This document shows, one piece after another, positions 143-62,627 of a stretch of DNA of 64,000 bases. Numbering within the stretch: the stretch's first letter is position 1; each line of letters opens with the position of its first letter. The position numbers and the translations under genes are program-made. The notes under the pieces were generated by a model. That model had not been told where the DNA came from and searched no databases. It worked only from the letters and a program-made list of their open reading frames with translations. The stretch comes from Nereocystis luetkeana (taxonomy: Eukaryota > Sar > Phaeophyceae > Laminariales > Laminariaceae): the NCBI GenBank assembly GCA_031213475.1, contig JARUPZ010000009.1:4117001-4181000 (forward strand), given 5' to 3'.

Positions 143-829
143 AATGACAAGCCTAACAGTAGGAGTGGGACGATTCCAAGACTAACAATAGTGCTCGGAC
201 ACGGTACAAGCATACCTGGTATATTCTAACGGCCAACGTTGTACGTATTGATAGTTGCTTAATGCAGTTGAGAGTTTAACCCCTTCAAGAGGGGGTGTGC
301 CACGCTCCCAATTATCACCGTTAACGTAACTGGGTCATAGAATGAGAGTTGCTCTTTGATTTATACTCAATTTCTCAATTAAATTATTAAATGCGACAGC
401 AAGCAGCTGTGAGTTCGACTGATCTAATGGTCGATACTCAGCTTCGCAAGCTTAGCAGCTGCGTAATACGTTTCGTCTGTGCCCCATTTTTCACTGAATT
501 TACAAATATAATTGCATGACGGTTACGTGCAAGTGTGGTGAGCTTAATTAAGCTTTATTTTTTCCAAACCGCCGGAGGATAGATATACCAGGGGAATATA
601 TCTTAAAAAGGCCGTTCGCGAGTACTCTAAATGCGTTTCTCATTTTATCTCAAAAATCTACCAATTTTTTACATCGTAGTGGCAGGGAGACGGGAGGAGA
701 ACGTACTGTTTGACCCAAGCTCTAGGTTACGAGTACAAACAATCAACAACAGGAAGCGGAGAGACAGAAAGGGCGAATACTACTATTATTATTGTACTAC
801 TCCAGCTGACAGTCTGTGTGTAGTATCGT
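143..829. other. Non-coding stretch
   Basis: No gene or known repeat is recognised. It holds one TACCTGGTA motif at 213-221. The short reading frames here have no visible domain and are treated as chance. Confidence 0.4.
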
Positions 830-2084
830 TGGTGGCAGTGAAGCTCGACCTCAGTACCGGCAGTAATATATATTGCGGTGCATCATGGTGGGCGAATACG
901 AATCGAGAAGCAGATATGTATGTATATACAAGGCGCTTCGCTCCGCGGGTGGCCTACGCCGCCCGCTACGCTCGCTCAGGAAGGGAAAAAGTACCAGGTA
1001 CATCAATTTATGCGAAGCGAACAGAGGTCCACGATTGAATTTCGTTTTTTTAGGTATCAAAATTGCAAACAGGCGACTTGATATTGCCAAGAGTCCCGCC
1101 GCCATGCTTCAGGAAAAAACAGCTCCGAAGTTAGCTCGGACGCCACATAATACGCTTCGCGTCGCGGATGTTGTACGTATGTACATACCCCAGGGGGGGT
1201 ACTCCTGCTGTACTAATTTTCTTATTTTGATATGCTCTACGTACGTCTGTATGCACTCGTATGTGCGAAGAAAGCGAAAGCACAGCACGGCACAGCAGCA
1301 AAAACATTGAAAATTAAACCGAATTTTCCGAAAGAAAAAACATCCCTATCCCCTCGCGTGCATAAATGTTCTGCCTGATTGGAACACCTTACACCCGGTC
1401 CCCGGTCGAAAAGAAGAAAATAAAACAAATCGCACAGAAGAGCTTCTCTATCAGCCTCGTACGCCGCCCGCCCCTCTCGCGACCACCTCGCCACCGATTC
1501 GGTCCGGGTAAAGCTTTTATCACTCGCTGATACAATCAGCCCCGTCGCCCGCCTCCAGTGCTCACCGTGGCCTCCCTTCGCCAGCTCGATAACGTTTGTG
1601 TTCAAACTGCGCACCTCCTTCTTTCAACTTCTTCGGAGTGGTCGCAAGAGTAAGCACCGCTTGAATCGTATCTTGCCCTCCTGAACGACCTTGATAAACT
1701 CGTACATACTCTATCAACAATCGTAAATCGAAGCCAGACAAAGCCCGTTCATGCATCCCTCGTGTCTCGAGGCACACGCGACGCCTAGGCACGAAAGCGA
1801 CGACCGCGCTCCTTACAACCTCCCTTCTACCCGCCAGCATCCACAGACACCCGCGACGGTGCCGGGCTCTCCCGCGGTGCCGTACTCGGAGTACACGCAC
1901 GCACATGAAACGAAAGAAGAAAAAAGGAAGAAAGGACCGAGAGTGCCAATAGAAATAAATGGAGAAAACAAAGAACTGCTGGAAAGGTCCGGCAAGTATT
2001 GAAAGGGGGTGGTTTGGAAGTGGGAGCTCTGAGAGGCCAGGGATGTACCAACCGGGCACGCTCAGGGGTTGTGATCTAAATATG
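830..2084 (+). repeat. R1 dispersed repeat, copy 1
   Basis: About 1.2 kb that recurs inverted at 38.65-39.80 kb and in the same orientation at about 60.02-61.06 kb. The first part (830-890) also resembles 16.76-16.85 kb. Copies share the stretch around GCGAAGCGAACAGAGGTCC, the segment CAGAAGAGCTTCTCT and the end GTAGTTCTAC. Identity is uneven, so the copies are not recent. No terminal inverted repeat or target duplication was found, so it may be a piece of a larger element. This copy carries a TACCAGGTA (992-1000) that is absent from copy 2. Confidence 0.7.
1562..2059 (-). CDS. Unrecognised ORF inside R1, frame open in all three copies
   Basis: A 165-aa frame on the minus strand of R1. An arginine-rich block (VCVRVLR, HRGRA, HRRGC, VLAGR, LETRG) can be read without a stop in the matching frame of all three R1 copies (also near 38.74-39.03 kb plus and 60.64-60.94 kb minus). 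The first half is hydrophobic and phenylalanine-rich. I recognise no family. The opposite strand is also open over much of this stretch, which argues for base composition rather than a protein. Probably not a functional gene, but the three-way conservation makes it worth listing. Confidence 0.15.
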   Translation of the reverse strand: MPGWYIPGLSELPLPNHPLSILAGPFQQFFVFSIYFYWHSRSFLPFFFFRFMCVRVLRVRHRGRARHRRGCLWMLAGRREVVRSAVVAFVPRRRVCLETRGMHERALSGFDLRLLIEYVRVYQGRSGGQDTIQAVLTLATTPKKLKEGGAQFEHKRYRAGEGRPR

Positions 2085-2189
2085 TAGTTCTACGGTACGA
2101 GGTAGACCTTGTGCATACCTGGTTACATGATTATCATACGATAGGTTTCCTTTGTTTTCGTGGTTTCCCTTTTTTAGGAATGCTTCGAG

Positions 2190-2772
2190 TGGTCAACGTT
2201 GAAGATCATGCTGCACAGACTGTGGTCGGATTGCAAGCAAAATAGTGTTGTAGCAGTAAGTGTTTTGCTGAACCAAGACGAACGAACACCATCGTACGTG
2301 CGCGGTGGTATATATCCGTGACGTTTGGGCTCGTGCTCATCGCGGAAAAAAAACATCAGAAGCGGCACAGCAACAACAGCAGACGTTGCGGCGGCAGCAC
2401 CATCAGCAGCAACTAACAGTCAGTATGGCACACGAGGCCAGGGCCAGTGCCGCTGTACGCTCGGGTGGTTGGTATTTCTACATGCAATCGAATACCAGGT
2501 ATAGCTTTTGTTGTTTTCCTGGTTCCTCAACCCGAAATTCGGCATCATTTATCATTTGAAAACGAAAGAACGGACCTGATAATATGCGTCCAACAGAGAA
2601 ATCTCCTCGAAGCTGGTGCCACCACACTACTACTACTACTACTACTACTACTGCTACCACTACTACTTCTGCTGCTGTACTGCTGTATGACCTCTACATC
2701 TCAAAGAACTTCTCCTGCTTCTTCATCCCCCCGTCAGTATGAGGTAAAGCCTGACAACACCACCTACCTGCA

Positions 2773-2880: not shown

Positions 2881-4258
2881 GAGTACCAGGTATCGGTTTT
2901 CAGATTTCATTCGGTATGATACTTGTAGAACTAAAATAAAATTGCTCGCACGTAAAAAACAAAGAAATGACGTTTTGAGTTGTATTCGTTCTTCTTTTTT
3001 TGTTATCATGGCCCACAGGTTTACGTTTCTCTGAACGTCTAACGACCGCACCAGCATGGGAAGGTTTCGTTAGCGTGTATGCGGGCGTAGATCCTGACGG
3101 AACTGGCATTGGTGCCGTGTGTTTTGAGTTCGGTGGATACTAAAAAACCGGGCCGGGGCCAATGAAAATATTTTTATGTCGAATCACGCACACCGATACA
3201 CACAATTACTCACGAACTAAAATCGACGCCCTCGTATATAGTACGCGACAGCTCACACGAATTTCCTTTTTTGTCTCTCGTCTTATTTCCTCTCCTTGAG
3301 CTGGAATGTAAATATCTAATTTATTTTTGGGCGAACAGGTGCATAACGCCAAATTCTTCTAATAAATTTGAATTCTCGTTTTGAAAAGGCGTTGTATACC
3401 TTTGTATCTTGAGCGGTTATCATGAATATTTCGTCTCCCACATGGCATCGATCATTCATAATTCCTAAAGTATTTGTTAGAAACAATGCTCTACAGGTTC
3501 TGCAGGCATCGAATTTCATCTTGCCCACCTTCAACGACACTGCTGTAGCACTACTCGGACATGGGGGATATAGCCACTCAATCGACATGGCCTACGTTTC
3601 GCAAGTTTTGGGCGTTAAACCTTCCCCCCTGCTTCTGACTGCCGGGTTTACCCCGCCTGTTTGTGAATCTCCCAGCTGACGGTTCTGCCCGCCTGCTCTG
3701 ACTGCCTCCCTCCGCCTGCTCTTTGTCGTGACGCTCTAGAAAAACCGACGCACCCACCGCCGCGCTTGTTTTTGAGCTGTATGCACATAACGGTAGTTTC
3801 ATGCTCCGCGTGCTTTGGTCTTCTTCTTCAAGAAGATGCACACGGTTATCGTACACTACTTTCGCGCGATCCTGACTCTCGCGAGTGATCAGGCCAATAA
3901 ACCACCCCATGCTTAGTCTCACTAACACACCACGTTTCACTGAAGAATTGTCTAAAGCAGGTGGTCTCGACTCTTAAAGACGAAACCCACCCGGAATAAC
4001 CATCCCGATTGCCTCATCCTCCCGTGACATGTCGTCTTCGTCGCCCATCAGAGTCAGCGGCCCTTTCCCGTTGTCAGAAGCATCTTCATGCTGGCCATAC
4101 GTTGAGAGTGTGGGGGCGTACGAAAATGAAAAGAGGGTCGTATTTCACATTGTTCAAGGGTCAAACTCTGGGACTATTCTCGAGAAGAGAATCACACAGT
4201 ACAATGCTGTAAGTTGTATGTCACGAAGCTGTAAGTCGTAAGTACCCACTAAACACCA
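2881..4258. other. Non-coding stretch with two unrecognised minus-strand frames
   Basis: No gene recognised. Two overlapping minus-strand frames (3316-3588, 90 aa; 3578-3940, 120 aa) show no known motif. The 90-aa frame has a cysteine pair in CRTC and ends with a basic and aromatic stretch, which is too little to call. TACCAGGTA at 2884-2892. Confidence 0.3.
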
Positions 4259-4399
4259 CTAACACTGTGCTGTATCTAGGTACCTGGACAGTAAACCACC
4301 TTGAAGAGCTGAACGTAACGAGACTACAGTAGATGCAACAACACAAAAAAATGAAACCCGTATACAATCAACTTCACCCAAGCTGTCCTCGTATTCCTC

Positions 4400-5640
4400 G
4401 TCGCCGTCCTCGTTATCGTCCTCACTATATATATGCTCGTCCACCTCATCGCTGTCCTCGTTGTCGTCCCCGCCCCCATCACCCTCATCCTGCTCCCCTC
4501 CTCCTTGCTTTTGGTCCCCGTCCCCTGACCCATCCGCTTTCTCTCCGCTATCATCACCCCCCCCCCCCCCGCCGCCACTCCCGCGGCCACCCCCGTCACT
4601 TTCTCCATCAGCTCTCTGCCCGTTGATTTCCTCCCCACTTCTCCCACACCCCCCCCTCCCGCCTCCCTCCCCCCCAGCGCCAACCACCTCGTCCTCGCTT
4701 GCATCGTCCATGAACGCCAAAAGGCTCCGTCAGCCCCTCCAGGTTGATTCGTTCGTCACCTGTCCCGTCTGCCGTCATCAGGCTCCTTGTCTTGTCGGGC
4801 AGGCGAAACCTGTAGCCAGCACGGTTGCCGACCGTGTCCACGGCTGTTGCGACCCACTTGGTGAGCAAGACGCGTCGATCGGATACACTCTGCGCGTTGC
4901 TCTCGCACCATTCTCGAGCCATAGGTCGAGTTTCTTTAAAAAACCTCGACCTTGATGAATGCCCCAAGGCCTGTATCGATGGGCTGCAGTGCGTCCGTGC
5001 AGCTTTCAGGGAAAAGCAACACCAGCGAATTGCGCTCCTTCTTGATGTATACCTCAAACCTGTACGTTGTCTGTCAGTGCTAGGTATCCAGCGTCAGTAG
5101 CGATTGCTCCGCGGGCACCCTACCCCGGCCTTGCATACGACTCTCCTCACGAAAGCATTTTTCTGCCCACTCCGTGCAGTAGTCGCTGTCCGCCCACGCG
5201 AGTTTTTTTCTGGGACAAAAACACCCACGCCAGAGTCGTAGGCCTTATTTTTTAACCTGGGAGATCCTCTTCCCTGTGCCTCAAAAAATAATCCCGCACC
5301 GCATGAGCTCCCCACCCGGCCCAATGGTAGGTTAGATCGTGCACTGCCTCTTTTCCAGCCCACTGAAAGGCTGCGCGACGGAGACGCGCTTACTTCCCTC
5401 GGGGGCCCACGCTTCCGACTGCCCATTTACGAAAGGCAAGGGCACCTGGTAAGAATGGAACAGTTCTTTCCGCTGAAACGGCCCTTACTTCGGATCTCGT
5501 GTCTGGGCAGCCCGCACTCCAGCTTCCGTGTCTACTGAGAACGCGTGCCCCTTACGCTGCGCAGGCTCGTTCTTCGGCTTGCGATAATTTCTGCGGTACG
5601 GCCGGATCTGCGGGATAGACGCTCGTCGGTAGATTCGCTC
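4400..5640 (-). pseudogene. Decayed DDE transposase, Tc1/pogo-like
   Basis: Read on the minus strand from about 5640 downwards, translated pieces in several frames follow the order of a DDE transposase. They are RKPKNEPAQRKGHAFS, SYQVPLPFVNGQ (about 5400-5450), GLEKRQCTI (about 5350), AWADSDYCTEWAEKCF (about 5190), SLLTLD (about 5095, likely second catalytic Asp) and LLFPESCTDALQPIDTG (about 4980-5035). They are followed by DRRVLLTKWV and MTADGTGDERINLEGL, then a glycine- and acid-rich tail. The CTDxLQPxDxG block is typical of DDE transposases of the Tc1/mariner-pogo kind. Stops and frame changes occur at least four times, so it is dead. The N-terminal DNA-binding part is not recognised, and no terminal repeats were found. 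This superfamily inserts at TA, which matters for the TACCAGGTA signal. Confidence 0.75.
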
Positions 5641-5734
5641 TTGTCTTGAGGATATGTTGCATTTTGTTTTTGCAATCTTGCAGAGGGGAAAGGATTTTTA
5701 TGAAGGAACAAAATATATGAAAAACACGTCACCT

Positions 5735-5742
5735 GTGAGGAC
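5735..5742. repeat. Left 8-bp target duplication of the hAT-like element
   Basis: GTGAGGAC, identical to 16162-16169. It lies directly outside the left terminal inverted repeat, which begins at 5743. Confidence 0.8.
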
Positions 5743-5827
5743 TAGGGTTTGTAATCAACTACAACAGGCAAATTAATAATCATGATTAATCACGTTTTTT
5801 ACCGTGAAAATGATAGATTATAATCAT

Positions 5828-6146
5828 TCTCCTAAACTTTCAGATTGCGCGCAAATCCGAGCCAATGCACCACCACGTTTTTATCACTCTCATATTATGA
5901 TATGAAAAACAAAAAAAAAAAACCATCATCATATTATGATAAAAAGAAACCCCACTTGCATCGAACAAACAAACGCCAAACAATGCGACTAGCCCCCGCC
6001 GCCACTTGCGCAATCTACGACACCCGGTCGCACCACCAGCGAACATAACGGGTACGTCTAACAAACAGCAACAAACACACACACGTTACTGCGACCATTT
6101 AACTCCCCCCCACTGACTCCCTCAAAAGCACGGGCGGGTGGGTGGG
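5828..6146. other. Outer 3' segment of the DIRS-like element
   Basis: Between the left edge of the element and the inner 212-bp repeat. It is AC-rich, with an A-run near 5908 and ATATTATGAT words. In a split-direct-repeat element this should match the segment between the recombinase and the inner repeat (6359-6645), but no match was seen by eye. Confidence 0.35.
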
Positions 6147-6358
6147 AACTCAAACTAGTCTGTATCACACCTTGAACCTGTAGCGTTGCCTCTGCTTCAC
6201 TGCGCTGTTGCGTGTAGGCTGCGGCTACGTACCAGACAAGGTGTATGTACCAAGGGCTACGATTCACGCTACCGTGAAACATCGCATTCATCTGATTGGC
6301 TAAACTTCTTACGTACGTACAAAACTCACATTCTCTCATTCTTCCGAGAATACTCTGC
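6147..6358 (-). repeat. 212-bp direct repeat of the DIRS-like element, inner copy
   Basis: Reads identical to 11906-12117 in the same orientation. It lies beyond the recombinase gene, as expected for the inner copy of a split direct repeat. Confidence 0.85.
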
Positions 6359-11901: not shown

Positions 11902-11905
11902 CCCC

Positions 11906-12117: not shown

Positions 12118-12640
12118 ATTATAATCATAATCCTGATTATATTTCCGTGATTGTTTGATTATCTCAAATGTAGGGCAATATTATTCTTTTTATAGAGCGC
12201 GGGAACCGTTATGATAATAATCTGATGTTTGTTGTCATAGAGAGAATTAGGCGTTATTCTTCATATTCTTTGGTTGAGTGCGTGTTGGTAGTACGCACGT
12301 CACTTGGGCAGCAGCAGCTGCGGTTTGGTTGATCCCGGTTGTGGGATTACCAGGTGGATTTCGCACAGAACGGTGCTGGCAGACAGGTAGAACACGCTAA
12401 ACAGACAGGGGGTTGTTGCTTGCAGATGGACAGCGGTTGCTCGCTGGACCAGGTATCGCGTGAATTCTGATCTACCGCTAGGCGGCGAATATTGCAAAAT
12501 AAAAAGTAACTTCGCAAGTGGAGCGGAGGTGGAGCGTTTCGTACGAATCATGACTAATCAATAAACCTAAATTTGGTGATTATTGTTGGTTATTTTTCGT
12601 TATAACGTCTACCTGGTATTTGGCTTCGTAATTTCAAGAT
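12118..12640. other. Resumed hAT-like arm and non-coding DNA
   Basis: Begins ATTATAATCAT, the word also found at 5817-5827, and continues AT-rich like the left arm of the hAT-like element. No gene. TACCTGGTA at 12610-12618 and the near copy ACCAGGTA at 12451-12458. Confidence 0.4.
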
Positions 12641-12679: not shown

Positions 12680-14306
12680 CCTGTTGGGTATGTCTATTGG
12701 TCTGTCAATAGGTTGGGTATTGAATATCGATACATATTGCCCCCTGCAATAGGAAGGTGAAAAACGTGTGTCTATCGATAGCCATGATATATATATTTGA
12801 TCAGCAATTTCAGAGCGGGATACGCAATAAATAGACTATTATTATTGTTGTTAGGATATACCAGGTATATAAATACTTCGTATGGATTTGTCTATGGATA
12901 TTCATTTATTTGGCCAACATCGGTTCAAAGCAATAGGTACGATTGGCTATACATTGCTGCTCTTGGCATAAGTATGTGGAATATAGTCCATTGATACCCA
13001 TTTTATTATTCGCCTTCTGACAATGTGCAGAGCGTTATTCATTCAAAATGAAAAAGCTGACATAATTAATCGAATACCACTAACTTCATCGAACCAATTC
13101 TCCTTCCCTGCGTGTACTCCCTTGCACCCCCACCATTTACCGAGATATTTTACCTACCATGTATCTATACGCCACGCTTCCTACTCCGCATCTACATTCC
13201 ACCCCCACGCCATGGGAAGTAGTCCTCCCTCCTCCTCCCTTCTCCCCCTGGCGGCCTGGCGGACCCGCAGGGCGAGCTTATATCGGTGTACTCTGCGCGA
13301 GATCGCGACCTGGGTAGTCACCGATATGACCTGGAAAAGGTGCTCCTTACAAACCCCTTTTCTTGCTAAAGATCCCCGGTCCGTTCCATTGAATTCGCAA
13401 TATGTTCAAGTCTCTATCGATACGTATATTTATTTGTTTGATCAAAATGTTCAGAGAATTTTTGCGCAATAGCCTATTGGATACCCTGGTACCAGGTAAC
13501 ATATAGTACTACTGCTGTAGGTGTGTATGGTTTTGTCGATCGATACCTACTTCGTTTACCCCTCTGTTAGGTGAAATGGTACCGAGGCTTTTGTGCTTAG
13601 TATAGAGATGGATGCGACATTGTCCATCGGCACATATATATTTGGCTCATATAGGTCCAGATAAATAGGTACAATATAAAGGCTTGATGTTTAATTGGTA
13701 TTTATTTGACCAACATATTCAGTAAAATAGGAGGATGTGTACACGTGCAACAGGCTAATGTTTTTAGGATAGGAATGCAAAAACTGTCGATCGATAACGT
13801 ACGTACCTCTATTTTCAATATAAGTATTTATCAATACCCTTTTGCAAACCTACTTGAAGAGATGCAATAAGTCAATATGGATGGATGGAAACGCTTGCAG
13901 ACCTATGTAATTGAGCAGTAGTAGTAAGTAGTATTAGGGTCGACATTATTGTAAGCCTACTAAATTGACCAAAAGGCACACCGATCGATATCACGGCAAA
14001 CCTATCCATTTTATCAATACGTACGTATAGATATATATACGGCGATGCGAAGGTATTGTTCGTACGATAGCCTATCTCGAGGATCACTTTCAAACAATAT
14101 TGGTGTCCAAGATAACAATCGATAGGCATCTTCAAAATACTACCGGACGCACAAAAGGCTGTGGCCGCTGCCCCTATTGTTGCTTTCAATAAATATCGAT
14201 ATACCCCGAAACCAACCCATTGTGGCTCTCAAATAGTATCGATACCCCATCAACGCCCACACCTACCTGTTGTTGGTCCGATAGTCTATTAAATAGGGTA
14301 TTTTAA

Positions 14307-14950: not shown

Positions 14951-16000
14951 TGGACAAATGTGCCAAGATGGGTAGGTAAAATAATAGTCTATCAGCCGGG
15001 CAGTAGATCAGTGAAGATGCCAATCTCTACACAGTGTCGGCCACACTACTGTAGGCTTGCTTCCTATGTTTTGAACAATATCGAAGTACTGCTGCTTTTC
15101 GAGAAAGGGGGAGGGGGGGGCGTAGTCATTTTTGTTGTTGCTTGCCTTAGCCATATATATGACCATTGAAGGGGGTCCCTATACTCTACCAGGTAGTAGG
15201 TATACGTTAAATATGTCTTGATGGTTTGAGACGTCTCGTGGGTTGCAAGCTGTAAGGCAATACATAAGGCGTTTTTCTTATCTGCCCCGTTTATTTTGTT
15301 TTCGAGGGGGGCGAGAGGTGTGGGTGATGAATTTTAACAAAGGCGCCCCGCTGGTTACAATGAGGGTTTTTTATTCCGCCTCATATTAGTGCTCTTTTCG
15401 GGGGGGGGGAGTGGTAATAATGTAAAAATGGATTTTGGTTTGGGTGCCCTCGGTTCGAATTGCTTTAGGCGGCTTGGGCCGACACTAGCTCGCTGACCAC
15501 CGACACAACTGCCCCAGCGGATATACCATAATTATTAGTGTATGGAAAAGTGTGTGGAACACCCCCTCTAAATCATGCTGGTTGGAGAAAACTATATACC
15601 CTGGTACGTAGCTTGGGCCACAGTACACCGGGAATGGGTATACACATACCGTGGAGATGGCGTTTGGCCGATGGCGGGTGCGCAGAAGCAGTGCGCAACG
15701 TGTTGATCCCAAGTGCAAAAAGCAACAGAGAGGTAGTTCCTACAACCAACAACATATATATGGGTCTCGACGACGCTGCTGCGGGCTTCGGAGCCGCTGC
15801 TTTTGGGTCTGCCGGCGTTCCTCGTGACTCCAACCGACGCAACCCGATTGCAGATGGCACGACTGCCCTGGCTTTGCTGCTCCATGGACAGTAACTGCGT
15901 GCTGGGCGTGTTGTTGTGCCCTCGGGTCGGGTGCGGTGGTGTCGTAGCCGCCCCAAATAATATCCCGGCATGATAACTCCTTCCATTTCTCCATAAATGA
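14951..16000. other. Non-coding stretch within the hAT-like element
   Basis: G-runs near 15107-15120 and 15404-15410. Three overlapping frames in 15538-16013 on both strands show no known domain. TACCAGGTA at 15187-15195. From about 16000 the sequence becomes AT-rich with repeated ATCA/TGAT words, marking the right arm of the hAT-like element. Confidence 0.35.
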
Positions 16001-17255: not shown

Positions 17256-17716
17256 TAAGATTCCTACCAGTAAGTAGTCGATACCGCCGGCGGGTCGTGA
17301 TCCCACGTCTCTCCGCGTTAGCAGAGTGTTCTTGTCATACTGTTGAACTATGACGGTTAGATTGTAGGGCAGCTGGGACTGAGACAGCAGTCCGATGACA
17401 GGATGAGACAGGGAGATATGATGAGTGAGAGCCGAGGGGCGAGCAATCATCGTTGCTCTCGTGACGCTCGGGTCAAAGGACAATCAGCGGGGCCTTTGCT
17501 AAGTCCCGCTGCGGATAATCCGCTAGGGAGAATAGCCGCCGCTGAGGATCCGTCAGCGGAAAGTGGAGGAGAAGGCTCCGTGGCGGGACCCAGACATGAC
17601 AATCTCCCGAGTTCCTCGAGCAAAGTTCTTGAAGAGCTTTCTCGAAGGACACTGGGGTTTCCACTACCAGGTATATGGGTAGGCGTGTTGGTTCCGGGGA
17701 CGTGATATCCACATTA
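17256..17716 (-). repeat. 3' LTR of the gypsy-type element
   Basis: Direct partner of 26056-26501. Compared with it, this copy carries two short extra segments. One is a clean 7-bp CCAGGTA at the TACCAGGTA of 17665-17673; the other is about 10 bp including TACCAGTA near 17265. Both belong to the window-wide TACCWGGTA signal. Confidence 0.85.
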
Positions 17717-18840: not shown

Positions 18841-20262
18841 AGGGTCGATCTTAACGATAAGTGTTTTTCAGATTTTTGTTTGGTATTTTCCCGAAATATT
18901 TTCAGGAAAAAAAGCCGAACATTTTCACCCCCCCAAAAAGCCGCCTCGAAGTTTTTAGGGTTTTCCAGGAAATTAAGGTACAAGGCCGTAGAGGATCGGG
19001 CAACCCCACCGCTCGAGATGTGCAACCACTCGCGAGCGCACAGAGCTGACAGGGGTCGTTCCTAAGGTCACTCGGAAGTCATGGCCGAACGCAGAAGGCG
19101 CAATAGCTTTCTGGGCTCTCGTGGCCGAGTTCACAAGGTGACCGCACCGAGGTGGCCGACCGACTGAGCTCGGTTACAGCAATAGCTCGGCACCTGCCTA
19201 CGAGTCAGGCTGGTGACTGTGGGGCCACCGCACGCATGGGTTCCGCGAGCGCAGCTGCTGTAGGGACGGTTCTGTGCCGGGTGGGTGATTTACCGGGTGG
19301 ATGATTTATTTCCCGAGCCAACAGAGGCACTTACTCGATAAGATTCAACCCTCGCTGAATTTGGTAAAATGCCGAAATTTCAGGAAAAATGAAATACCAT
19401 ACGTGCCGTTAGACCTATGCCAATGGAAACGCGAAGTAGAGAAGTTTTTTTTCAAATATACCAGGTATGGCTTTAAAAAAACAGCCGAAAATTTTCTCGT
19501 ACCGCCGCTGTGGGGAAAAAAGAGAAAAATGTTTGATTTTTTTTTTTTTTCCAACGGCTGCAGGCGGCGCAATTTGTGTTTTTCTGGTCGCAAATTGTCA
19601 ACACGGTGATCAAAACCAGCTCGTGCGACGATCGACCCTCGATCTCGACATAGACTCAGCCCACGGCCAACCCACTCGGTATCTGGCAAGCCCAACGAGT
19701 ATAGATGACGGCCTCGAAGATATCAGGCGGATCCATGGTCTAGGGGGCGAGAGCTTGCCGGCGGCGTCGTACGGTATCCTCCCAAACCTGAAAAAAAAAC
19801 TATTTTTTGCCTTTCGAGACGGATGGAGAAGTTTTGTCTTCTGTTTTGTGCAAAGCAGCGGCCAAATGTTTTTTTATCACACGCCTGGTCAGCTCCCGCC
19901 ACATGACACCGGCCATGGTGTGAAGACGGTGACCCTAGGGTGGGTCGGAGCCCCTAACGAGCGCACTCCGTTCAGAATTCGTGACGCAATCGTTGGTTTT
20001 GTTGATCGATGTGTGTCGAGTTCTCGGAATCTCGCCGCTTCGAACCACAGATCGGCCTGAGTTTTTCTCAAGCCGATGTTGGCCCAACATCGGCCCCAGA
20101 TTTGCTTTTTTCGGGCTTTTCCAAAAGTAAGGAACTTTTTTTTTTTTTTTTTAGGTGGCCCATAGGAAGCGTGTTCTGTTTTTTTTTGACGGGTATTTTT
20201 GAAATTCAAATTTTTTATTGCAACTTCGCTGTACCATTGGCATAGGTCTTAAGATCGACCCT
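18841..20262. mobile_element. DNA transposon with AGGGTCGATCTTAA ends, nested in the gypsy element
   Basis: The ends are perfect 14-bp inverted repeats (AGGGTCGATCTTAA at 18841-18854; the complement at 20249-20262). They are flanked by ATG on both sides (18838-18840, 20263-20265), a possible 3-bp target duplication. The inside is 1.4 kb with T-runs and no recognised transposase, so it is non-autonomous. The inverted repeats diverge after 14 bp. A smaller element at 33623-34255 has similar ends (AGGGTGGTTATT). Superfamily not assigned. TACCAGGTA at 19459-19467. Confidence 0.65.
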
Positions 20263-21023
20263 ATGAAAAAAACAAAAATCCAAATCCAGGAACGACTCTC
20301 CCATGAAGCGATGTGAGTCGGTATTTTAAATTTTAAAGACGACTAGTAGTGAAGGACTTCGCGCCACCCGGTGCTAACCTCAATTGGAACGATACTTACA
20401 ATGTACCAGGTATGTGATAGACATGTCGATGTTATGTACAACGTCTTGAAGGAGTGAAGAGACATATAATATGAAAAACCGAGACGACAACAAGGCAAAC
20501 GCAAAGGGCACTGCGGACGGCAACTTGAAAAACAACGCGAGGGTACTCGCGATGAAAGTACGCCGCAAAATGCTGACAGGCTGGCACACACACTAAACCA
20601 CAAACTCCTTTGGCTCCACTAGACCTATGGATCACCCCCCCCTGCTAACGAGGTGACGAGGTGATTACATATTTATTACTAAGTCTACAGTGTTGGATAT
20701 CCTAGCACTTGAAAACAACACAGTCTTGGGATCGGATGACGACATGATCTCCCACTGAGTGGGATGCCAAACATAAAAGTCAACTATACTACAGTACACT
20801 ATGTGCACCATTTAGAACTCACCACGGAGGGTGAGGACAATACAGAAGTCCGCGGTACTCGCACTGGACAAATGCCAAGCCATGCGGTGAATACACTGAA
20901 ACACCATCTACTCCTCCTGTAAGATAAGGAGGAGACAAATGATGGAACCAGTAGCACAGGGCAGTCATTAGTGGTTGCTCAAACTGATGAGACATGAAAG
21001 AAAAGCGCTAAAACAAGACAAAA
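20263..21023. other. Non-coding tail of the gypsy-type element
   Basis: Overlapping short minus-strand frames at 20343-20640 have no recognised domain. TACCAGGTA at 20404-20412. Confidence 0.3.
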
Positions 21024-24000: not shown

Positions 24001-25971
24001 GAGGGTTGCCGTTCTTCTTTGCGACTAGAGTACACGGGCTACCCTACAGGCTAGGACGCTCTTCGATTAGGTCTCATTCTTGCATGTCATGGACGCATTT
24101 ATCTATGACATCGGTAGCGTGGGGGGTTGCACGGTATGGAGCACGGTCAACCGGACGTGTGTCAGGGGGCAAGGGAAACGATGCCTCTGCATTGGTGCAG
24201 CGATATAGCTCTGATATGAGCAAGGCAAAGACAGGACGGTACCGGGAGCCCAAATCAAGGGCAGTGGCGTTTTGGTCCGGTAAAAGCTTAGTGTCTACAA
24301 ATGCTTTGGGCAAGGGACCTTCAAGCTCTGATTTGGCTGGAGCGAGTTCGTCGACTGATTCGGGGGTTTTCGCAGCAGCGTTTGCATGTAATTGATCAGG
24401 TGTCACTACTGACACAGTGAACAACTGACCAAGACATAATCCAATCGGAAGTGCAACACCATCAGAGGACGGGTTTGCAAGTTGCACTGCTACTGAGCCA
24501 TCAGCAGCATACCAAGTAGCAAGGGTGCGAGCGACAATAATTTTCTCGAATACCGACGAACTACCAGATTCTAAGAACTCAAGCTCAGACATAATTCAAG
24601 GTTCCACGACAACAGAAGAATCCTGGACAGGGGGACAATCTGTTAAAGCTACGACTAGAGCCTCGTGTCGAGGTTTGAGATCGACACGTTCGCGCAAGCT
24701 CACATCTACCCCTACTGCATCACGGTGGACAGCAGCGACGGACTGATTTGGGTCGCAGGCAGTGGAGGGGTTAGCTGGGCGGGAGGCGGGGTGGCTAGTA
24801 CGATGAACTGCTGGGATAGATTTACCAGCAGATGCAAATGACATACCAGGTACCTGGTAGTTTGGTTTTCCCAATCAAGGACGGCTCCAAAATTAGACAT
24901 GACCTTTTTGTCAAGGAGTATTGAATCGGGACCAAGAGCCGGTAATGCCAACGCTTCGACATCTTGCGTGATCGTACTGAGGGTAAGTGTAAAAACTACA
25001 AACCCTAATATATCCAACGGTGATCCATTCGCTGCTCGCAAGGCAACCGCGGACGGTGGAACAGGTTGAATAGTGACAGAACGCAAGGTTGGGTGGGACA
25101 TCAACCATGCTTGAGAGACAACGGAAATATCAGTAGCAGTATCAACAGTGATTGCGGGCACTGGATAATTTTCTACAGAGACGGAAATTTGAACTCTGCG
25201 AGACGGAAGAGACAAAGAAAAAGGATGGGATCTGTGCACTAGCATCGAGCTATGCCACTCAGCAGCTGTCTTGTTATTATTTGTTGCGGGGCTAACATCA
25301 CCCGGGACAGTCAGGACATGGCTAGAGTGGCGTGACCGCTGTGCACTACGGTTACCTTCCGACACACACGCAGGAACAGGAGTGTCATCAGCAAACGTCA
25401 CCCGCTTGCGCGGATGGTGCGAGCTGTACGCGCCACTACTTCGACCTGAGACAAGGATATTGGCAGACTGCAAACCACGATCAATACGCTGGTTACTCCC
25501 ATCATTGCGAAGACACTCGATACGACAGACTTGGTACCTACTGCTACAGCGGAGCGTTTCCTCTTCGCGCTAACCTTGCTTAGCGTATTAGTAGCAACGT
25601 GTGAAAGTGATACTTTGCGGTGCGGACAGCACTCCTGCGTCTGTACGAGCAGATTGGACAGGGTCAGATTGGACAGCAGTAGTTGAGTTGTTAGACTCGG
25701 ACAGGGGCACAACAGGACAACAAGCGACTGATAATCTTGCCAGTTGTTGTAGCATGCCATTGTGCTGCTCGCTGAGCACCTCGATTTCACCGTTCTCCAT
25801 CTGTTCAAGCTCGTGGTTGACGATACGAGCATACCAAGTCCGGATAGAGGCTATGGAGTCGTCGGAGTTGGAGGGTTCGGTGCTGCCCTCCTTGCTTTCG
25901 TCAGTTCCTGACGAATGCGGTGCTTCCTTGCGTGCTGCCGCTGTGTCGGGGTTGCTGTCCGAGGTCGGCAT
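21024..25971 (-). pseudogene. gag-pol region of the gypsy-type element
   Basis: Parts in order on the minus strand. About 25400-25971 is gag-like, with an acidic serine-rich start. About 24712-25473 is an aspartic protease region (DTATDISVVS). About 23437-24592 is reverse transcriptase, with PFGVCSVPWLFQ. About 22838-23157 is RNase H. About 22087-22353 is the zinc-binding head of integrase (CLSCQHRKSSHRP). About 21670-22083 is the integrase core (LHSDQATEFENQ). About 21024-21515 is the integrase C-terminal region. Broken in several places. Confidence 0.8.
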
Positions 25972-31210: not shown

Positions 31211-33622
31211 ATACCAGATATTTAAAAAGTTCCCACGACGTTCTTTCGAGCTCCAAGTAAGCGCTTAAGCTGGGACGCCGTTGGCTTGTGTTACATCTAA
31301 CGTTTGAGTGTTTAAACCAATCGTCTTAGCGTTATATTTAATGTTTTAGTGTGTGCACCAGCTGTGCCCAACAAAGCGGAGCAGAAGTTGAGACAAACTA
31401 CGACGTATTATTGTGAACATATCCAATAAACCGGTCGCAGCCATAGTCAACTCAGTAGCAACGGATATCGAATTGTTCGCGTAGAAAACTGATGTCCCGC
31501 GAAGAGATCGTTGGTTGGACCCAGCTATGTTTCTAACCTTCCTTGATTCCGACGCGACAGCATGTCCTTTGACGCGAGCAGGCGCTCCACTGCCGTGACG
31601 CGTCGTATCCTGGAGATGGCCTGGTACTTTCCAACTCAAAAGCCTTTTGCTGACTCAGCCTGCGGAATCTTATTTGACAAGAGGGACCTATGATATTATT
31701 CACACACCAGGAAATTGCCCGGGTGTGATTCACCGAACCCATGCACACTGAGAAAGAAGCCATCGAGAACAACACCGTCAACATCATGTGGATATTGTTG
31801 CGAAATTCCGACAGTACTCGATCATGTCTTTGAAGACAAAACCTACCTGTCGCTTTTAGAACATCCTTGTGAGGGGTTTCTCACGGCGTCAACATTAATT
31901 GTTCCGTAACACGGGCCCACCTGTGGCATACACCGCAGGGAAACCTGAACGCAGAGAACGTGTTAATATGATTGAGTGTTACCGTTCGTTTCAAATTACG
32001 ACGATAAAGAGTTACTTTCGAGATACGCTACAGGAAACACAATTCACACCGTTTATTGCCCACAAACACGCGTTCGTCAAAATAATCGACAGCTCCCAAG
32101 AGAATTTCGGGTCGAAGGGGGCCTGTTAATTCGACGCTGTCTCTGCACCGTTGTTGACCTAGCGGGGTGTCGATAGCAGCAGTTGGCCGTATTGGTATAA
32201 ACACTTGACAGGATCGTGCCAAACGACGAACCCGTGCTCGCGAAGGACTGCGTGGGGCTTGTTGTATCTGTGTAGCTACAACAGCGCAAAGCGACGTTGC
32301 AGCCAATCGCAGCAACATCATCGTCAAGCTTCCAGCTGGTGCCAGATTAAACGAGAAGCCGAGGGTCCGGTCAGAGACAAATGATTTGACTACAGTTACA
32401 CAAAAGACGAGTAACCTAAAGCCAGAACTATTGTAAGAGGTACACACCCCTCGGCAGATATGGGTGGCTAGTCGCCAGGAACTAACCGACCAATCCTTTA
32501 CAAATACTTTTTTTTGGTCTCGCTCTTTCAGGTCTGCCTTGAAGTCACACTTGTTTTCGAATTTTGCAGCAAAGTGTCGAGCACGTCTTCGAATTAAAAC
32601 AAACGCCCAGTCTACCTGTCGTCCGTTGTTAAAGCTGACTTCATAGTCGGTATATCTTACCTCCAGCTCTTATCGAAATATTTGTCTAACGACGTATACG
32701 CATCTACTAATCTCGACGGCAGCAAGCTCTCGGCCACTACTGCTGCTGCTCCTGCTGCTACAAGCTATGCGCTCATCAGAGTGTGCTGTTGTATGTGGGG
32801 GGGTCCTAGCTAAAGTACCAGGTATATATCCTGGACGACAAGCACAACGCATGGACGGGTGATATGACTTAGGGCAGGTGCAGTACCTGTGCTCCACCTC
32901 TGTCTATCCATTGTGATGTGCTTCCGCCATCATCTGGAAAACCACGGTTGCCGAAATCTCTCGAACCATGCCTGTTTGAATCACGTCTCTGTGTCGTCCA
33001 GATAATCGGCGGGGTGGTACGCCATAAAATACATGCGCACTTTTTCCCCATTGTCCCCCCCGTGACTGACTACTGGGACCAGTGACTCACCTGGATGCTA
33101 AGTACGTACCGACCAATCAGCGTCGAATTTATTGTCATTTCGATAATATTTTTTATTGCCCTTTATTCATTAGGCTAGCCTTCCGACAATGCGCAGCGTG
33201 AGCTTGCATGTTGATCAATCACAAACATTCCTGAAATAAAAATTCTCCGTATACAAAGGAAACCTATACTCTACACCTGGATATACTATTTCGATTGTTT
33301 TAGACACACGCAGGGGTTGTTACGTATTGATACACTGATGCATAATGTCGAGCGGCCTAATTTGTACCGTATGGTTTTTTTGTGCATGGCGTTACATTTA
33401 TTTAACGCTTTAGTATAATGTGTGTGCACCAGCTGGGCCCGATAAAGCGGAGCAGCTGCAGTTGAGACTAACTACGACGTAACACGCCGAGGATACCCGT
33501 ATCTACTATGATCCACCTGGACGGACAGCATGCCGAATGGCCTCCTATTGATGCTATTGTAACGCTCGAAAACAGGCGATGCCACACGAGTCAGGAGACA
33601 CGAGACGGCACTTTCATACCTT
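31211..33622. other. Non-coding stretch with a short direct repeat
   Basis: 31350-31415 and 33420-33485 share TGTGTGCACCAGCTG, AAAGCGGAGCAG and ACTACGACGTA, an 70-bp direct repeat about 2.07 kb apart that may be paired ends of an unrecognised element. A 25-bp word (CCTTCCGACAATGCGCAG, 33180-33197) recurs near 13.0, 56.1 and 61.7 kb. TACCAGGTA at 32816-32824. Frames on the minus strand at 31346-31787 have no known motif. Confidence 0.4.
32028..32447 (-). CDS. Unrecognised frame with signal-peptide-like segment
   Basis: A 139-aa frame. An internal methionine pair is followed by a hydrophobic stretch (MMLLRLAATSLCAVVATQIQ) that looks like a signal peptide, then a basic and proline-rich part and a C-terminal region with VDYFDERVFVGNKRCELCF. 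Read from that methionine it would be a secreted protein of roughly 97 aa. No family recognised, no intron signals examined in detail, and no copy elsewhere in the window. It may be chance. Confidence 0.15.
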   Translation of the reverse strand: MCTSYNSSGFRLLVFCVTVVKSFVSDRTLGFSFNLAPAGSLTMMLLRLAATSLCAVVATQIQQAPRSPSRARVRRLARSCQVFIPIRPTAAIDTPLGQQRCRDSVELTGPLRPEILLGAVDYFDERVFVGNKRCELCFL

Positions 33623-41398: not shown

Positions 41399-42034
41399 CT
41401 CCTGACACGTCACGAGTTTGGCTGTCCATAGTGTGTCCCCAGACGTATAAAAGTATACCAGGTACCTGGTACCTGGTACATTCTGAACAAATTCATGAAC
41501 CGGAATGTTTTCCCGTTTGATACTGATACTGAAACAGTGATAGGTGTGATCGTAAGGGTATTTTGGTGTTGTTGTTGTTTTTGTTGTTGTTGTTGTTCTC
41601 ACATGATGAACTGTCTGACGAAGGAGTGTGTGGTCACACAAAGGCTGGAGCCCTAGGAAGATCCGAAAAGCAAGAAACAAATCGAAAATTCGGCTGCCTG
41701 AAAATACACGAGACGAAGAACGCGCACACGAGCTAAAACCAATGTGCTAACTGAACTAACATGGCCGAGGGTATATCCTCTCAACTATAACATACGAGTA
41801 CCCCCGTTCCCACCACTAACCAACTCGTGGCTGCTGACTACAGCGGATGCTGTCTGAAGTGCTGCCTGCACCGTACGAAACGTACGGTAGTCGTGAAAAC
41901 GAAAGAGGAACACACCTGCCTGATATCTGGAGTGCTGTCAGAGTGAAGACTCGCGGATATGGAGTGAAAATGTTTTTGGTAAGTGTACCCCGTTCTATTA
42001 ATAGAGCGCATCGACTGATATGAAGAATCGAGGC
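41399..42034. other. Non-coding stretch with a triple TACCWGGTA string
   Basis: 41456-41478 reads TACCAGGTA, TACCTGGTA, TACCTGGTA sharing their TA ends. A (TTG)n run lies at about 41562-41597. No gene recognised. Confidence 0.5.
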
Positions 42035-51256: not shown

Positions 51257-51645
51257 TAAGAGTTACTACTCTGTACCAGGTATGTGATGATGGGAAAATT
51301 TGAAGGGGTCTCAGAACCTTTTTTTTTTCGCGGAAAACCTGCGATTTACTAGACTGGACTGTCAAAAACCCCGGAAGACTCCTCAAGATGCCGACTTTAG
51401 TTTTCCGATAGCTTCCTCGAGCAATTTTCCTCGTTCCTTCCAGAGTCGTAGTTCGACTGCTGTTCGTCCATATTTTAAAAAAAACTATGTATTTCCAGTA
51501 CTACTCAGGACATCATGATTCCTCATCAAAAGGCTTCCAAAATCCATTATTTTTGGGCCTCCAGAGAAAACTGATTGGCAGCTCAAAAAAATTATCTATT
51601 AATAGGGGACCCCGGGAAACAGGAAGATGTTCCTGCAAGAACCTA
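51257..51645. other. Non-coding stretch
   Basis: TACCAGGTA at 51274-51282. No gene recognised. Confidence 0.35.
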
Positions 51646-51900: not shown

Positions 51901-52637
51901 TGTTAAGCCTACCCGCATTTCGAGGAGTCTACCGGTGTTTTTGGTTCCCCCGCCGAGCATAGGTAACGCATATATTCGGCCTGAAAACTTACCAGTACCT
52001 GGTACTTCTGATTTCTCAAGTGCTCTGAAATAAGTTGCCATAATATAACAGCAGTCAGTCAGTTGCCCCACAAGGAGTACAGGACTGTATTAATAGTATG
52101 TGTTCGTACGTGTACGGGAATCTCGTTTTCTTTTGAGTCAGCAAGGGCGTGCTGTGCCCTATCGCAATGATTAGAGTGTCTCATCCAGGCCGATCCTCAA
52201 CCATCCGGCCACGCCCGTGGAACCAGTTTCGAGGAGATCGCCCATAATAGTTGAAGTTACGAATAGGTTTTTCTTTAAGCATACGTAGAGTACTTCTAGT
52301 ACGCAGATACCGATGAAATCGTCGCTTTTCCATCGCGCCCCGGTCCCTGGACCGGTGCAGGAACAACGATTGGTTGTACTTACCAGCCAGTAAAAATTAT
52401 TAATAAAGACGTGAAATACGTACGCTATAACTTCAACTGATTGAAAACAGTTGATAATCAGTCTATTGTGCTGGGTCCCGGGTAGAACACTCGCCGACCG
52501 TCCGAAAGCAGGATCAAATCAACGCACCAGCCAGAACGGAAACGAGACCGAACCAGACCAGATTCGAAGCAAGGGGACAAACAACGCGCCCGTCCGTGAA
52601 AGTCTTACCCTTCCGTCGCGTACTACGTGGTTTCGTC
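51901..52637. other. Non-coding stretch before the candidate host gene
   Basis: TACCAG-TACCTGGTA string at 51991-52005. 52500-52600 holds a frame (52451-52657) with no known domain; it may contain the promoter or an upstream exon of the gene that follows, but no TATA box or splice signals are clear. Confidence 0.3.
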
Positions 52638-53518: not shown

Positions 53519-53754
53519 GGGGCATGACATGCTCAAAATCCGTTATTTTTTATGCGTTTTGGAGTTTGTTGTGGAAAGGGGTGCGGTGTTGCTCTGGGCA
53601 CCGGGTATTTTGTCGGGATTTCTTGATGTACAAAAATTACTTGCTGGGCTCTGTATTTCTCCGCTTTGTGGTGTTCGTAAAACATGTCATGTTTTATCCG
53701 CAACCATACCTGGTACCTTGATACGTAGTTTCAGCGTCATCGGCAGTTAATTTG
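53519..53754. other. Downstream region of the candidate gene
   Basis: TACCTGGTA at 53707-53715. No clear polyadenylation signal. A cysteine- and valine-rich frame here is not recognised. Confidence 0.3.
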
Positions 53755-54101: not shown

Positions 54102-54210
54102 AATTTGAGTGGGTGATTGTGACTGCCGCTGTGTTCGCTTGTTGTCTGTGTGGCGCTTTGTTGTCTAAATAGAAAAAAACAGAGAGCTGTGTTATTTGAG
54201 TATGAACGTA

Positions 54211-54357
54211 TTACGGGGGGCCATACCAGGTACCTACCTGGTACCTACCTGGCTTAAATAGAACCTACAGCCATTTCAAAAATCTACATATTTCGCCATG
54301 TATGTGCATTTTTACCAACAGTATCTGTTTGGTCCTATTCACTATTGCCCCCCGTAA
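54211..54357. mobile_element. MITE-C copy 2, carrying a TACCWGGTA string
   Basis: Inverted ends TTACGGGGGGCCATA and complement of TATTGCCCCCCGTAA. Where other copies read CCATAGTTAA, this one has CCATA followed by about 29 bp of CCAGGTA, CCTACCTGGTA and CCTACCTGG units, then CTTAAATAG. The string thus entered at a TA of the element. Confidence 0.8.
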
Positions 54358-55084
54358 TAGTACATACCATTGTTGTGGAAGCGCGGATATATACGAGGGT
54401 TTACACGGAGCGAGTATAGGGCCAGTACGGTGCAGCTCGAATCGCGGTACTTTTTTTGTTGGTTTGCATACTACTGCAGTAGTATTGGTATGACAGAACA
54501 AAGCCGGTAGGGCCACAGTACAGCCTGAATCGCGGTGTTTTTTTGTTGGTTTGCATGGCATCGGGGGTGGGGGGTGGGCCGTACTTATTTATTGCTTGCC
54601 TTAGTCGTTTGACCATTGACCACCAATTCCCTTCGAGACGGGCGGGGGCGGGAGGGGGGGGGGGGAGTTATCAAACGTGACAAGTTGCGTGCAACCTCCG
54701 CTTACCAGGTAATATATATAGACATACACACTGTTCTGATACAGTTTTTGACTAATATTGCAGAAACGAAATGACAGATCGGGTGGCGAGATATTGGTTC
54801 GACTAACTCTTTACAGACTTTTGCCTGTATATCCCTCACTTATTTTCGTGTTGCTTCGTCCGTGCAGCAGATTCTTGCCCTTCCTGGGCACGTATGTTGT
54901 CCGTCTAGCAGGCTTTCTGAAGTCCTTACGTCGTTTGCATTTTTTTTTTTTTTTTTCTCTTTCTTCTTTTTTTCACTTCAGTTTTTTTTGTGACAACAGA
55001 ATCATTGTCTCTCTACGATAGGGGATCAGGACGGACACCGGGTGTGCTGATGAATCTGGGTAGAAAGGACGATTTATTGTGAAG

Positions 55085-59691: not shown

Positions 59692-60018
59692 CTGAGCTCC
59701 AACGTATCGATGATTTCCCGGCCCATAATGATAGACGGTTCTGATTTTTGGGCTTCAGAGTAGATGGCAGTAAAGGACAGCAATATTTACGTCCAAACAA
59801 ATTGCCATAAAAGTTGGCCTATAATGCGAGTGAGACAGATACAAAAACTGAGAACTCACACTTGGCCTTGCCTTTTTCCTGCACCACTTGGCATTGACAT
59901 AATCCTGTCCGTAACACGATTGGATGGTCCATTTATGTCAACTTGCTTAGAAGCAACCACGACTTGGCGCTGAGGTTTATTTCCCTATCTGGAGCCATGC
60001 GGAGCCTTTGTACATCTA
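59692..60018. other. Non-coding stretch
   Basis: Nothing recognised. Confidence 0.3.
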
Positions 60019-61062
60019 TACTGGTTATCGTAGTTGCAAACCGGCGACTTGGCTATGCCAAGAGTCCCCCGCCGCTATGCTACAGGAGAAAACAGCTTGG
60101 ACGTGACATACGCTCCGCTTCGCGGGCGGTTCCGTCCTCTACGCTCGCTTACATGTCCCACGTACATAACCCAGATAGGGTACCTGTTTTTGTCTTTTGA
60201 TATGCTGTATGTCTGTACTCGTATATACGAAAGAGAAAACACACAGCACAGCACACAGCAGCACTGCATAAACAATGAAAATGAAACCGAAAAAGTCGGA
60301 AAGTATAAACGTCCCCGTCCCCTCTCGTGACATAATTTCCGGCCTCATTGGAACACCTTACACCGGCCAGAAGAAATAAACAATACCTGGTAGCGAACAG
60401 AAGAGCTTCTCTCTGAGTCTCACACGCCACCGGCCCCCCCTGCGACCACCTCGCCACCGATTCGGTCCGCATAAAGCATTCCCATCTCTCTGCCACAGTG
60501 CGGCCCGTCGCCTGCCTCGCGTGAGGGCCAGCGAACACAGTGACCCTCGTTCGCCCGCTCGATAATGTTGGGATTCAGATTGCGTAGCTCTCTTTGTGAG
60601 CGTCAGCTTGGTCGCAAAAAAAAGCACCGTTTGAACGTTATTTTACAATCTCGAACGACCCTGATAGACTGTAACATGTTACCTCCTCAATCGAATTCTG
60701 CAGATGGAGGCAAGACAGATCCCATTTATGCTTCCCTCGTGTCTCGAGGCGCGCGCGATGCCTAGTCACGAAAACGGCGACCGCGCTCCTCGCAACCCCC
60801 TCTCTACCCGCCAGCACCCGCTGACACCCGCGACGGTGATGCGCTCGCCCGCGGTGCCGTGCTCGGAGTACACGCACGCACACGAAACGAAAAAAGAAAG
60901 GAAAAATAACCAAAAGTGCCAAGAAGATGGAGAAAACTAACAACCGCTGGAAAGGACCGGCAAGTACTAAAAAGAGGCGATTTCAAAGTTGGAGCACAGA
61001 GGCCAGGAATGTACCAACGGAGCACGCTCCGAGAGTGAGACATCAGCAAGTAGTTCTACATA
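60019..61062 (+). repeat. R1 dispersed repeat, copy 3
   Basis: Same orientation as copy 1, from GTTGCAAACCGGCGACTTGG to CAAGTAGTTCTAC. It carries TACCTGGTA at 60384-60392, where copies 1 and 2 read CAAATCGCACAGAAG or AAAATCGCACAGAAG without it. Confidence 0.7.
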
Positions 61063-62627
61063 TATATACGACAAGTTGAAAATGCGCACTTATATCTGCA
61101 TATATTTGAAGTCGGTACTATATTTCTCGAGTAAACAAATGCACAGAAAAGGCCGAAGTGTTGGAGCCACGCGATGGGAACCTGGAAGAAAAAAGGCCAG
61201 ACCGACACTCCCCCCGCCCCCCACCCCCCCCAGCAGGCCGAGAAACAGAAAACGATTGCCCTTTTTTCCTGATATATATATTCCTACGTCGTCGTATTTT
61301 ATTTCACGCTTTGATACGCTTCGAACGCTGTTTCCTTGCCCAACCAAACTCTTGCTGTGCACATTCTTTAGGTACGGCTGCTGGGTTGGGTGGCGTAATT
61401 TTTGTCCTCGTAGGTAAGCGGCCATACCGTAGCCGCTACATATCGGTCCCCTCAACGTATCGCCAAAAACATAATATCCAAACAACCAATAATAGTCATT
61501 GAATAGTGTCTGGTACCTGGTATATTGTGTCCACCAGTATCCCCATGATTCTAAGAAAAGCAAACAATCTACCGTAACAACAGCCAATCAATAATACTGT
61601 AGTTTTCAGTTCTCCGAAACATGTTGGCCCGTAGAGCTATGTGGTCTTGGATTTGTATACCGTTCTAGGTATGTGTATGGATTGTCGGGAAATCGAGTTG
61701 AAGATCATGCTGCACATTGTCAGATGGCAAGAGGAATAATAATAGGATAGACAAGCCACGAGAGTGACACAGCACTCTTGTTCACTTCAGTGGGATGCTG
61801 CCCCCAGCGGCATGCATTGCTTTGGAATTGAAGTATCTGTGGTGCGAGTGCTACAGCAGTACCTCAACGTGACGTATCCAGAAGTTAATTTTTGCGTGCG
61901 ATGCGAACTGTCGTGTTTAGTGTCCAATTGTTGGCAGATGTCCTATCCAGGTGCGATATAAAAGTACGTGTTGTTTTACACCAAAGCAGTACGTATGTAA
62001 TGTAGGTCCTCCCCAGACAATGAGAATGGGCAATGCACGTCGAAGACAACGCGACGCCATAACCACCGCAATTAGCTATGTTTTACGCATCGGCTAGATT
62101 GGTAATCGTGACAAGATCGTCACCACGTACTCTGCGTACGTCCTCGCCTGCCTGTAGACGTTTGTGTTATCGCGAAAACTGGCTACATGTCAGGAACATA
62201 TGGTAACCTATCTCACGCAATCCCTTTCGCAAAAACGTCTCTGGCTTGTTGTCACCGCAGGGCACCCCCATTTCGATCTGATCTGGACATCAACCTCGTC
62301 ATTGCAGCGCGGGGACTTTTCGGCTTCGGGGTCTGCACGTCGTCGCGGTTAAACGACGGGGGGGTGACTTCAAGGCGTACCATAACCTCTGTTACGAGCG
62401 TAGTAATCAGGGAGAGATTATTTCATTGCGACGCAGTCATTGTTATCGCCGTTGCCTAGATTGGTGGGCGTTTTCGGGCTGCCTGTGTCTTCTGCGTCTG
62501 GCGGCACCGCAACTCGGCTGCGAGTCAAGACTGCGTCGAACAATCCCGGTCGTGCGCATGTTTTGTGAATGCGAAGGTCGTTTGGGGGCTATATCTACGA
62601 ACGAATGTATCCCAGCGGTAACGTAGT
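61063..62627. other. Non-coding stretch
   Basis: C-run at 61210-61232. TACCTGGTA at 61514-61522. The 25-bp dispersed word lies inverted near 61708-61735. Frames on both strands (61090-61587 minus, 61158-61502 plus) are unrecognised. Confidence 0.35.

Follow-up and report, generated by a model that had tools for sequence, protein, structure and literature searches.

What could have scattered one nine-base word through a genome? The question is raised by a 64,000-nucleotide stretch of the brown alga Nereocystis luetkeana (contig JARUPZ010000009.1, positions 4,117,001 to 4,181,000; hereafter the window), in which TACCWGGTA (W being A or T) has 25 exact matches, against a mean of 0.27 in dinucleotide shuffles (maximum 2 among 100 shuffles). 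Here, we propose that TACCWGGTA is the excision footprint, or scar, of some TA-targeting cut-and-paste transposon, a parent that we infer from the scars themselves, and we put the probability of this reading at about 85%.

A word gained at TA dinucleotides

The original prediction placed the excess at about fifty-fold, a figure borne out by the second-order Markov expectation for the window (0.54 against 25 seen, or 46.7-fold). It also held, correctly, that the word is independent of any one repeat, and over-representation extends to the whole genome: TACCWGGTA occurs at 182,395 places in the 465,085,209 bases, and the reversed pattern, which served as control, at 1,744. The genome density of 39.2 words per 100 kb predicts 25.1 words for the window, which is therefore a fair genome sample; a separate 200-kb stretch holds 70. 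Within the window the enrichment is mainly one of the exact word and not of near variants (42 matches with at most one mismatch, 9.79 being expected). TA stands on both sides in 70 of the 434 CCWGG of the 200-kb sample, the next commonest flank pair having 9, and the CCWGG excess depends on these TA flanks. That the word chooses TA, has a palindromic target preference and decays by point mutation is not what one expects of an artefact from adaptors or assembly, and speaks indirectly against such an origin.

How the word arises can be read from repeat copies that carry it and copies that do not. The comparison was made by script over ~330 kb (of which ~57 kb were chosen for transposase matches, so that the whole is not random), with one locus, L039, left out and tandems counted without overlap. 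An informative repeat copy was available for 29 of 111 words, and 13 of these 29 show a single exact 7-bp gap; among control TA-N5-TA sites 347 of 1,071 were informative and 9 of the 347 show a 7-bp gap (Fisher p 6e-11 against the words). This is the pattern of a footprint, a short insertion between two target copies where the empty site has one, and the paralogs show the scar state and the empty state only. At position 17665, for example, the window reads TTTCCAC-TACCAGGTA-TATGGG, and its counterpart in the repeat copy (26256-26501) is TTTCGAC-TA-TGTGGG. In an all-against-all repeat comparison of 273 kb, TACCAGGTA was the top TA-duplicating insertion, with 11 sites (TACTA had 10 and TAATA 6), and the near variants TACCATGGTA and TACCAGGGTA occurred once each in this role. 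Gap and insertion numbers are sites and not events, as one event may be represented in several copies of a duplicated repeat. The word represents 7 bp (TACCWGG) inserted at a single TA, which is then found on both sides, with the TA target-site duplication (TSD) expected of Tc1/mariner/pogo. The earlier suggestion that the word moves thus stands in so far as TACCWGG has been inserted at TA; what moved is likelier to have been a larger mobile thing, itself not found, of which the word is the scar.

The matches in the window are as follows (window coordinates; the strand is given as "." throughout).

213..221: probable footprint TACCTGGTA, exact word match
992..1000: probable footprint TACCAGGTA, exact match; of the spanning repeat copies 5 show a clean 7-bp gap and 3 other gaps
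2493..2501: probable footprint TACCAGGTA, exact word match
2884..2892: probable footprint TACCAGGTA, exact word match
12610..12618: probable footprint TACCTGGTA, exact match; ~20 bp before a TTAGGG-type array
12859..12867: probable footprint TACCAGGTA, exact word match
13490..13498: probable footprint TACCAGGTA, exact word match
15187..15195: probable footprint TACCAGGTA, exact word match
17665..17673: probable footprint TACCAGGTA, exact match; paralog 26256-26501 has an empty TA
19459..19467: probable footprint TACCAGGTA, exact match; a paralog in the C1 sample has an empty TA
20404..20412: probable footprint TACCAGGTA, exact word match
24844..24859: tandem pair TACCAGGTACCTGGTA, exact word matches
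32816..32824: probable footprint TACCAGGTA, exact word match
41456..41478: tandem triple TACCAGGTACCTGGTACCTGGTA, period 7, exact word matches
51274..51282: probable footprint TACCAGGTA, exact word match
51996..52004: probable footprint TACCTGGTA, exact match; earlier given as 51997
53707..53715: probable footprint TACCTGGTA, exact word match
54224..54252: array TACCAGGTACC TACCTGGTACC TACCTGG, period 11 and not 7, exact words at 54224 and 54235
54703..54711: probable footprint TACCAGGTA, exact word match
60384..60392: probable footprint TACCTGGTA, exact match; of the counted copies 1/3 shows a 7-bp gap and 2/3 other gaps, the best alignments being untidy
61514..61522: probable footprint TACCTGGTA, exact word match

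The starts first read by eye were exact for 24 of the 25 words, 51997 being wrong for 51996. The earlier remark that no word lies in a DIRS-like element or in a long interspersed nuclear element of the window, whose limits we take over from that source, fits word-free gaps at 2893-12609 and 41479-51273 (P ~0.02 each if words were uniform, the gaps having been chosen after inspection). The window also holds a near-exact 196-bp tandem duplication (8732-9124) within the DIRS-like region, an internal TTAGGG-type array of 6.7 copies (12640-12679) ~20 bp past a scar, and a 345-bp repeat (53757-54102), perhaps a short interspersed nuclear element, which has 4,271 first-look candidates genome-wide; among 40 that were scored, the full-length ones are 93-95% identical.

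How might such a scar arise? A cut-and-paste DNA transposon would insert at TA and duplicate it. Its ends would begin CCWGG, and excision would leave 5-nt 3' overhangs CCWGG on both flanks, an overhang length that we favour with some reserve. The overhangs would anneal over four G-C pairs (C-G, C-G, G-C, G-C) around a central mismatch (A.A or T.T), or would pair perfectly if the two ends differ, and end joining would seal them to give TA-CCWGG-TA. Re-insertion into a TA of an older scar would build tandem arrays. The Sleeping Beauty scar TACWGTA is explained likewise, by annealing of a three-base overhang. With element copy number conserved and one scar added per jump, the scars (~182,000) would come to far outnumber the elements.

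Sister families and the search for a putative parent

Other TA-flanked elements of this genome support the rule that a scar consists of TA, end bases and TA, and are no proof of it for CCWGG; the words and the ends were both known before they were matched. The first is a ~1.2-kb element with the terminal inverted repeat (TIR) CGAGCTGGGCCGGGCAAG (sample C1, 143566-144769 including the TAs), whose flanks recur at another locus, L040, with a lone TA as empty site. The word that matches its CGAG ends, TACGAGTA, occurs 82,203 times (both strands) against 9,641 for the reverse, an 8.5-fold excess, though the count may partly be raised by local composition. It is also seen in period-6 tandems (G000 contig C1:657262/657268 and C1:703332/703338), as expected if TACGAGTA too is a re-targeted scar. 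With the same element go TACTAGTA (7, with 2.2 expected) and TACGCGTA (10, with 5.7 expected), counts that look as if central mismatches had been resolved either way. The second group comprises TA-flanked pogo-like DDE_1 elements with CAGT ends, CAGTGGGGGGCCC (L036) and CAGTACCGGCCCGC (L043). TACWGTA, which matches CAGT ends, was found 78 times in the 273 kb (43.4 expected) and 117 times with the transposase loci added (50.8 expected). Residual bases therefore fit element termini for TACGAGTA and TACWGTA; the CCWGG-ended element was not found.

Several results weigh against our proposal. No TA-CCWGG-ended element was present in the ~330 kb; repeat breakpoints and 91 large paralog gaps, judged by eye, yielded no candidate; and five TIR matches starting TACCWG consist of four scars and one (L036 452-1789) inside longer inverted copies. 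Pfam DDE_3 had no match in the genome search, and the two DDE_1 families with clear TIRs both start CAGT, the other loci of L034-L043 being without a visible TIR. The footprint between the TAs is 5 bp, longer than the 2-4 bp that the available text of PMC7913693 gives for Tc1/mariner. Among the 29 informative sites, 16 lack a clean 7-bp gap, 8 of them having at least one same-word copy, and the remaining ones differ by substitutions or other gaps. Lastly, W is not independent between neighbouring scars, contrary to what a simple, random repair of mismatches would give.

The searches for the parent were of several kinds. No convincing CCWGG-ended element came from an 18-nt TIR screen of the 273 kb or from exact TIRs of at least 11 bases starting TACC in the ~330 kb, and clustering of 116 TACCWGG ends gave no convincing parent. 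TIR matches starting CCWG in either screen proved to be scars or parts of longer inverted repeats. Pfam Transposase_1 had no genome match either, in a search that lacked a positive control (the control genomes were silent) and so shows little. DDE_1 (pogo) has 28 genome matches, none tied to CCWGG ends among the 12 whose surroundings were read (11 matches in 10 fetched loci and one in the window). If parents are evenly spread, zero found means at most ~4,200 copies (95%), i.e. at least ~40 scars per element.

Two TIR-like sequences tried as parents, CCCGTCGACATCCAGCAC and CCCACGCTGCAAGGCGCTC, were rejected, as they mostly recur as single ends and are seemingly parts of longer dispersed repeats. 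The tandem word also matched 9 stretches in IMG/VR, which a rough estimate put down to chance and which were not used. The transposase loci offered observations of their own. L040 contains the TIR-like pair CGCGACAGCACTTAAGAAT and is ~81% identical over 1.1 kb to a relic of a pogo-type DDE_1 transposase in the window (4951-5211, minus strand, two internal stops). L039 (G000:C34:4442800-4450600) is a long inverted duplication with exact arms of up to 739 bp, two mirrored DDE_1 copies and no scars, either a recent inverted duplication or an assembly artefact. Short palindromic repeats of CCCGGGTA type lie at L035 5930-6346.

Might the parent then belong elsewhere? Within the odds given to our proposal, it is conceivable, though unlikely, that it is a TA-duplicating element of a superfamily other than Tc1/mariner/pogo, e.g. 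PHISTA, which the available text of PMC12730594 describes as a Harbinger relative with TA TSDs. The failure of DDE_3 and Transposase_1 to match the genome would suit such a parent, as would the footprint length. Against it, the genome contains TA-flanked DDE_1 elements with CAGT termini, and the CGAG family, which is not assigned to a superfamily, behaves alike.

Target choice, tandem arrays and the central base

If the scars record insertions, what was the target? The flanks beyond the word were analysed at non-redundant sites. A TA lies 7 bp (start to start) from the duplicated TA on 51 of 216 sides (0.236 against a background of 0.069), and the flanks are symmetric, with smaller TA peaks at 2, 4 and 14 bp and a base beside TA that is mostly a pyrimidine (Y). 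The target preference round TA is thus palindromic and of AT type (TA at 7-bp spacing, Y at +1, T at +3). Genome-wide, TA stands 7 bp to the right of 58,051 of the 182,395 words (25.3% once tandem pairs are removed), against 153 of 1,744 for the mirrored control AT-N5-ATGGWCCAT. Since the five bases between the TAs are mostly not CCWGG-like, this reflects in the main the choice of target and not a succession of older scars; some of the genome-wide spacers listed (CCTGA, CCTTA) may be decayed scars.

A scar is itself TA-N5-TA and would be expected to attract insertions; this goes some way towards explaining the 15,917 tandem word pairs found genome-wide, against 2 in the control. Extension per unit is ~8% both from words to pairs (15,917/182,395) and from pairs to triples (~1,300/15,917, the triple figure being a hand count of 20 among 50 distinct places listed, scaled to 3,210). 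Arrays in the sample comprise 101 single words, 6 double and 2 triple. Exact words in the sample number 119 (2.9 expected) and one-mismatch words 129 (64.6 expected), with an excess at every position that corresponds to ~6% mean change per site, a rough value from a simple background model; the scars are old enough to have decayed by point mutation and probably cover a range of ages.

The central base bears on how ends were rejoined. In the 15,917 pairs, W is the same in 9,539, AT in 4,522 and TA in 1,856, where independence predicts 50/25/25. AT exceeds TA 2.4-fold (binomial p ~1e-251); the p value assumes independent pairs, which duplicated repeats violate, and the 2.4-fold difference stands. 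With two identical ends, the element would leave W to be settled at random by mismatch repair; the counts in tandem pairs contradict this, and we reject the idea in its simple form. Unlike ends (CCAGG and CCTGG, with complementary overhangs), an orientation preference and ~20% tandem duplication would fit the counts, as would context-biased repair plus ~20% duplication, two parameters being fitted to two numbers in either model. With one-sided sample sites turned so that W is A, the second TA is to the right at 34 and to the left at 18 (tandems included; hand sum), in weak agreement with an asymmetric element or context-biased repair. W is A in 44 and T in 37 of 81 non-tandem rows listed, which is not significant. 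The correlation of W in tandem scars provides a direct handle on the rejoining of ends.

The tandems also invite a reading without any transposon, in which slippage or templated errors of the polymerase would multiply the unit TACCWGG in the manner of a microsatellite. Pairs and triples of period 7 would be expected from this, and the share of same-W pairs, above half, would be explained by ~20% duplication. Yet most words are single, several have been added to a solitary TA, the target preference is symmetric and lies outside the word, and extension stays at ~8% per unit without the rise that slippage predicts. We consider slippage improbable as the source of the word.

Still less probable is programmed DNA elimination, in which TA-bounded elements would be removed from the vegetative genome in each life cycle and leave CCWGG joins, a seaweed analogue of what ciliates do. 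It would account for a parent that is missing from ~330 kb despite 182,395 scars, because it would have been eliminated, and for joins that are highly uniform with boundaries at TA. The TA-bounded CGAG element and pogo-type TIR elements nevertheless persist in the assembly, and tandem and mutated scars are explicable without elimination. The best-known ciliate elimination system, moreover, leaves a single TA. Equally hard to credit is a motif, bound, methylated (CCWGG is the Dcm site) or otherwise selected, that selection or mutation bias keeps frequent: the exact word is indeed far over expectation with its one-mismatch neighbours only about two-fold so, but the excess goes with flanking TA, the word arises by a 7-bp gain, and the one-mismatch excess extends to all positions.

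Comparison with known systems

Excision by a TA-targeting transposon, our preferred reading, has its closest counterpart in Tc1/mariner/pogo elements, for which the available text of PMC7913693 gives footprints of 2-4 bp and describes a palindromic AT target. The resemblance lies in the TA target and its duplication, the short self-complementary end residue, the central W and the palindromic target preference; the present case differs in its five residual bases against 2-4, in ~180,000 copies in one genome and in a parent that is unseen. We found no report of TACCAGGTA, TACCTGGTA or scars at such density in the open-access literature, among the matches listed.

In rice, as in our case, an excised transposon can be traced by the mark that is left once the host has repaired the double-strand break. 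According to the available text of PMC4423477, recent excisions there were perfect in 8 of 94 cases, with deletions, filler or both in the rest, whereas here one uniform 5-bp join is abundant. Variable repair often makes excision scars hard to recognise; here one clean scar has been kept ~182,000 times. Among brown algae, the Ectocarpus mobilome has 17 Mariner-Tc1 families and shares with our material Mariner-Tc1 elements, miniature inverted-repeat transposable elements, DIRS elements and long interspersed nuclear elements; in the available text of that survey (PMC12477816), "footprint" occurs 0 times and "excis" once, in background. The proteins encoded in the present genome fit such an alga: there are 68 chlorophyll-binding matches, and one protein has PDB chain 9ygv_17 (FCP17) as a match at 8e-119, followed by other fucoxanthin chlorophyll proteins, which points to a fucoxanthin alga, and genome size and repeat types to a brown one.

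The internal eliminated sequences of Paramecium likewise combine TA-bounded excision with precise large-scale end joining (available text of PMC3894167 and PMC3077386). Their joins are programmed in the development of the somatic nucleus, whereas the scars described here look inherited and decayed. A single genome may record a large share of a transposon family's past jumps, and our estimate suggests that there can be ~40 or more scars for each element. If this is true, a single assembly would tell how often each element jumped, which targets it chose, how faithfully breaks were repaired and when the family was active. Set beside these systems, TACCWGGTA is most likely an excision scar strewn through the genome: the kind of mark is familiar, and its scale, length and uniformity are unusual.

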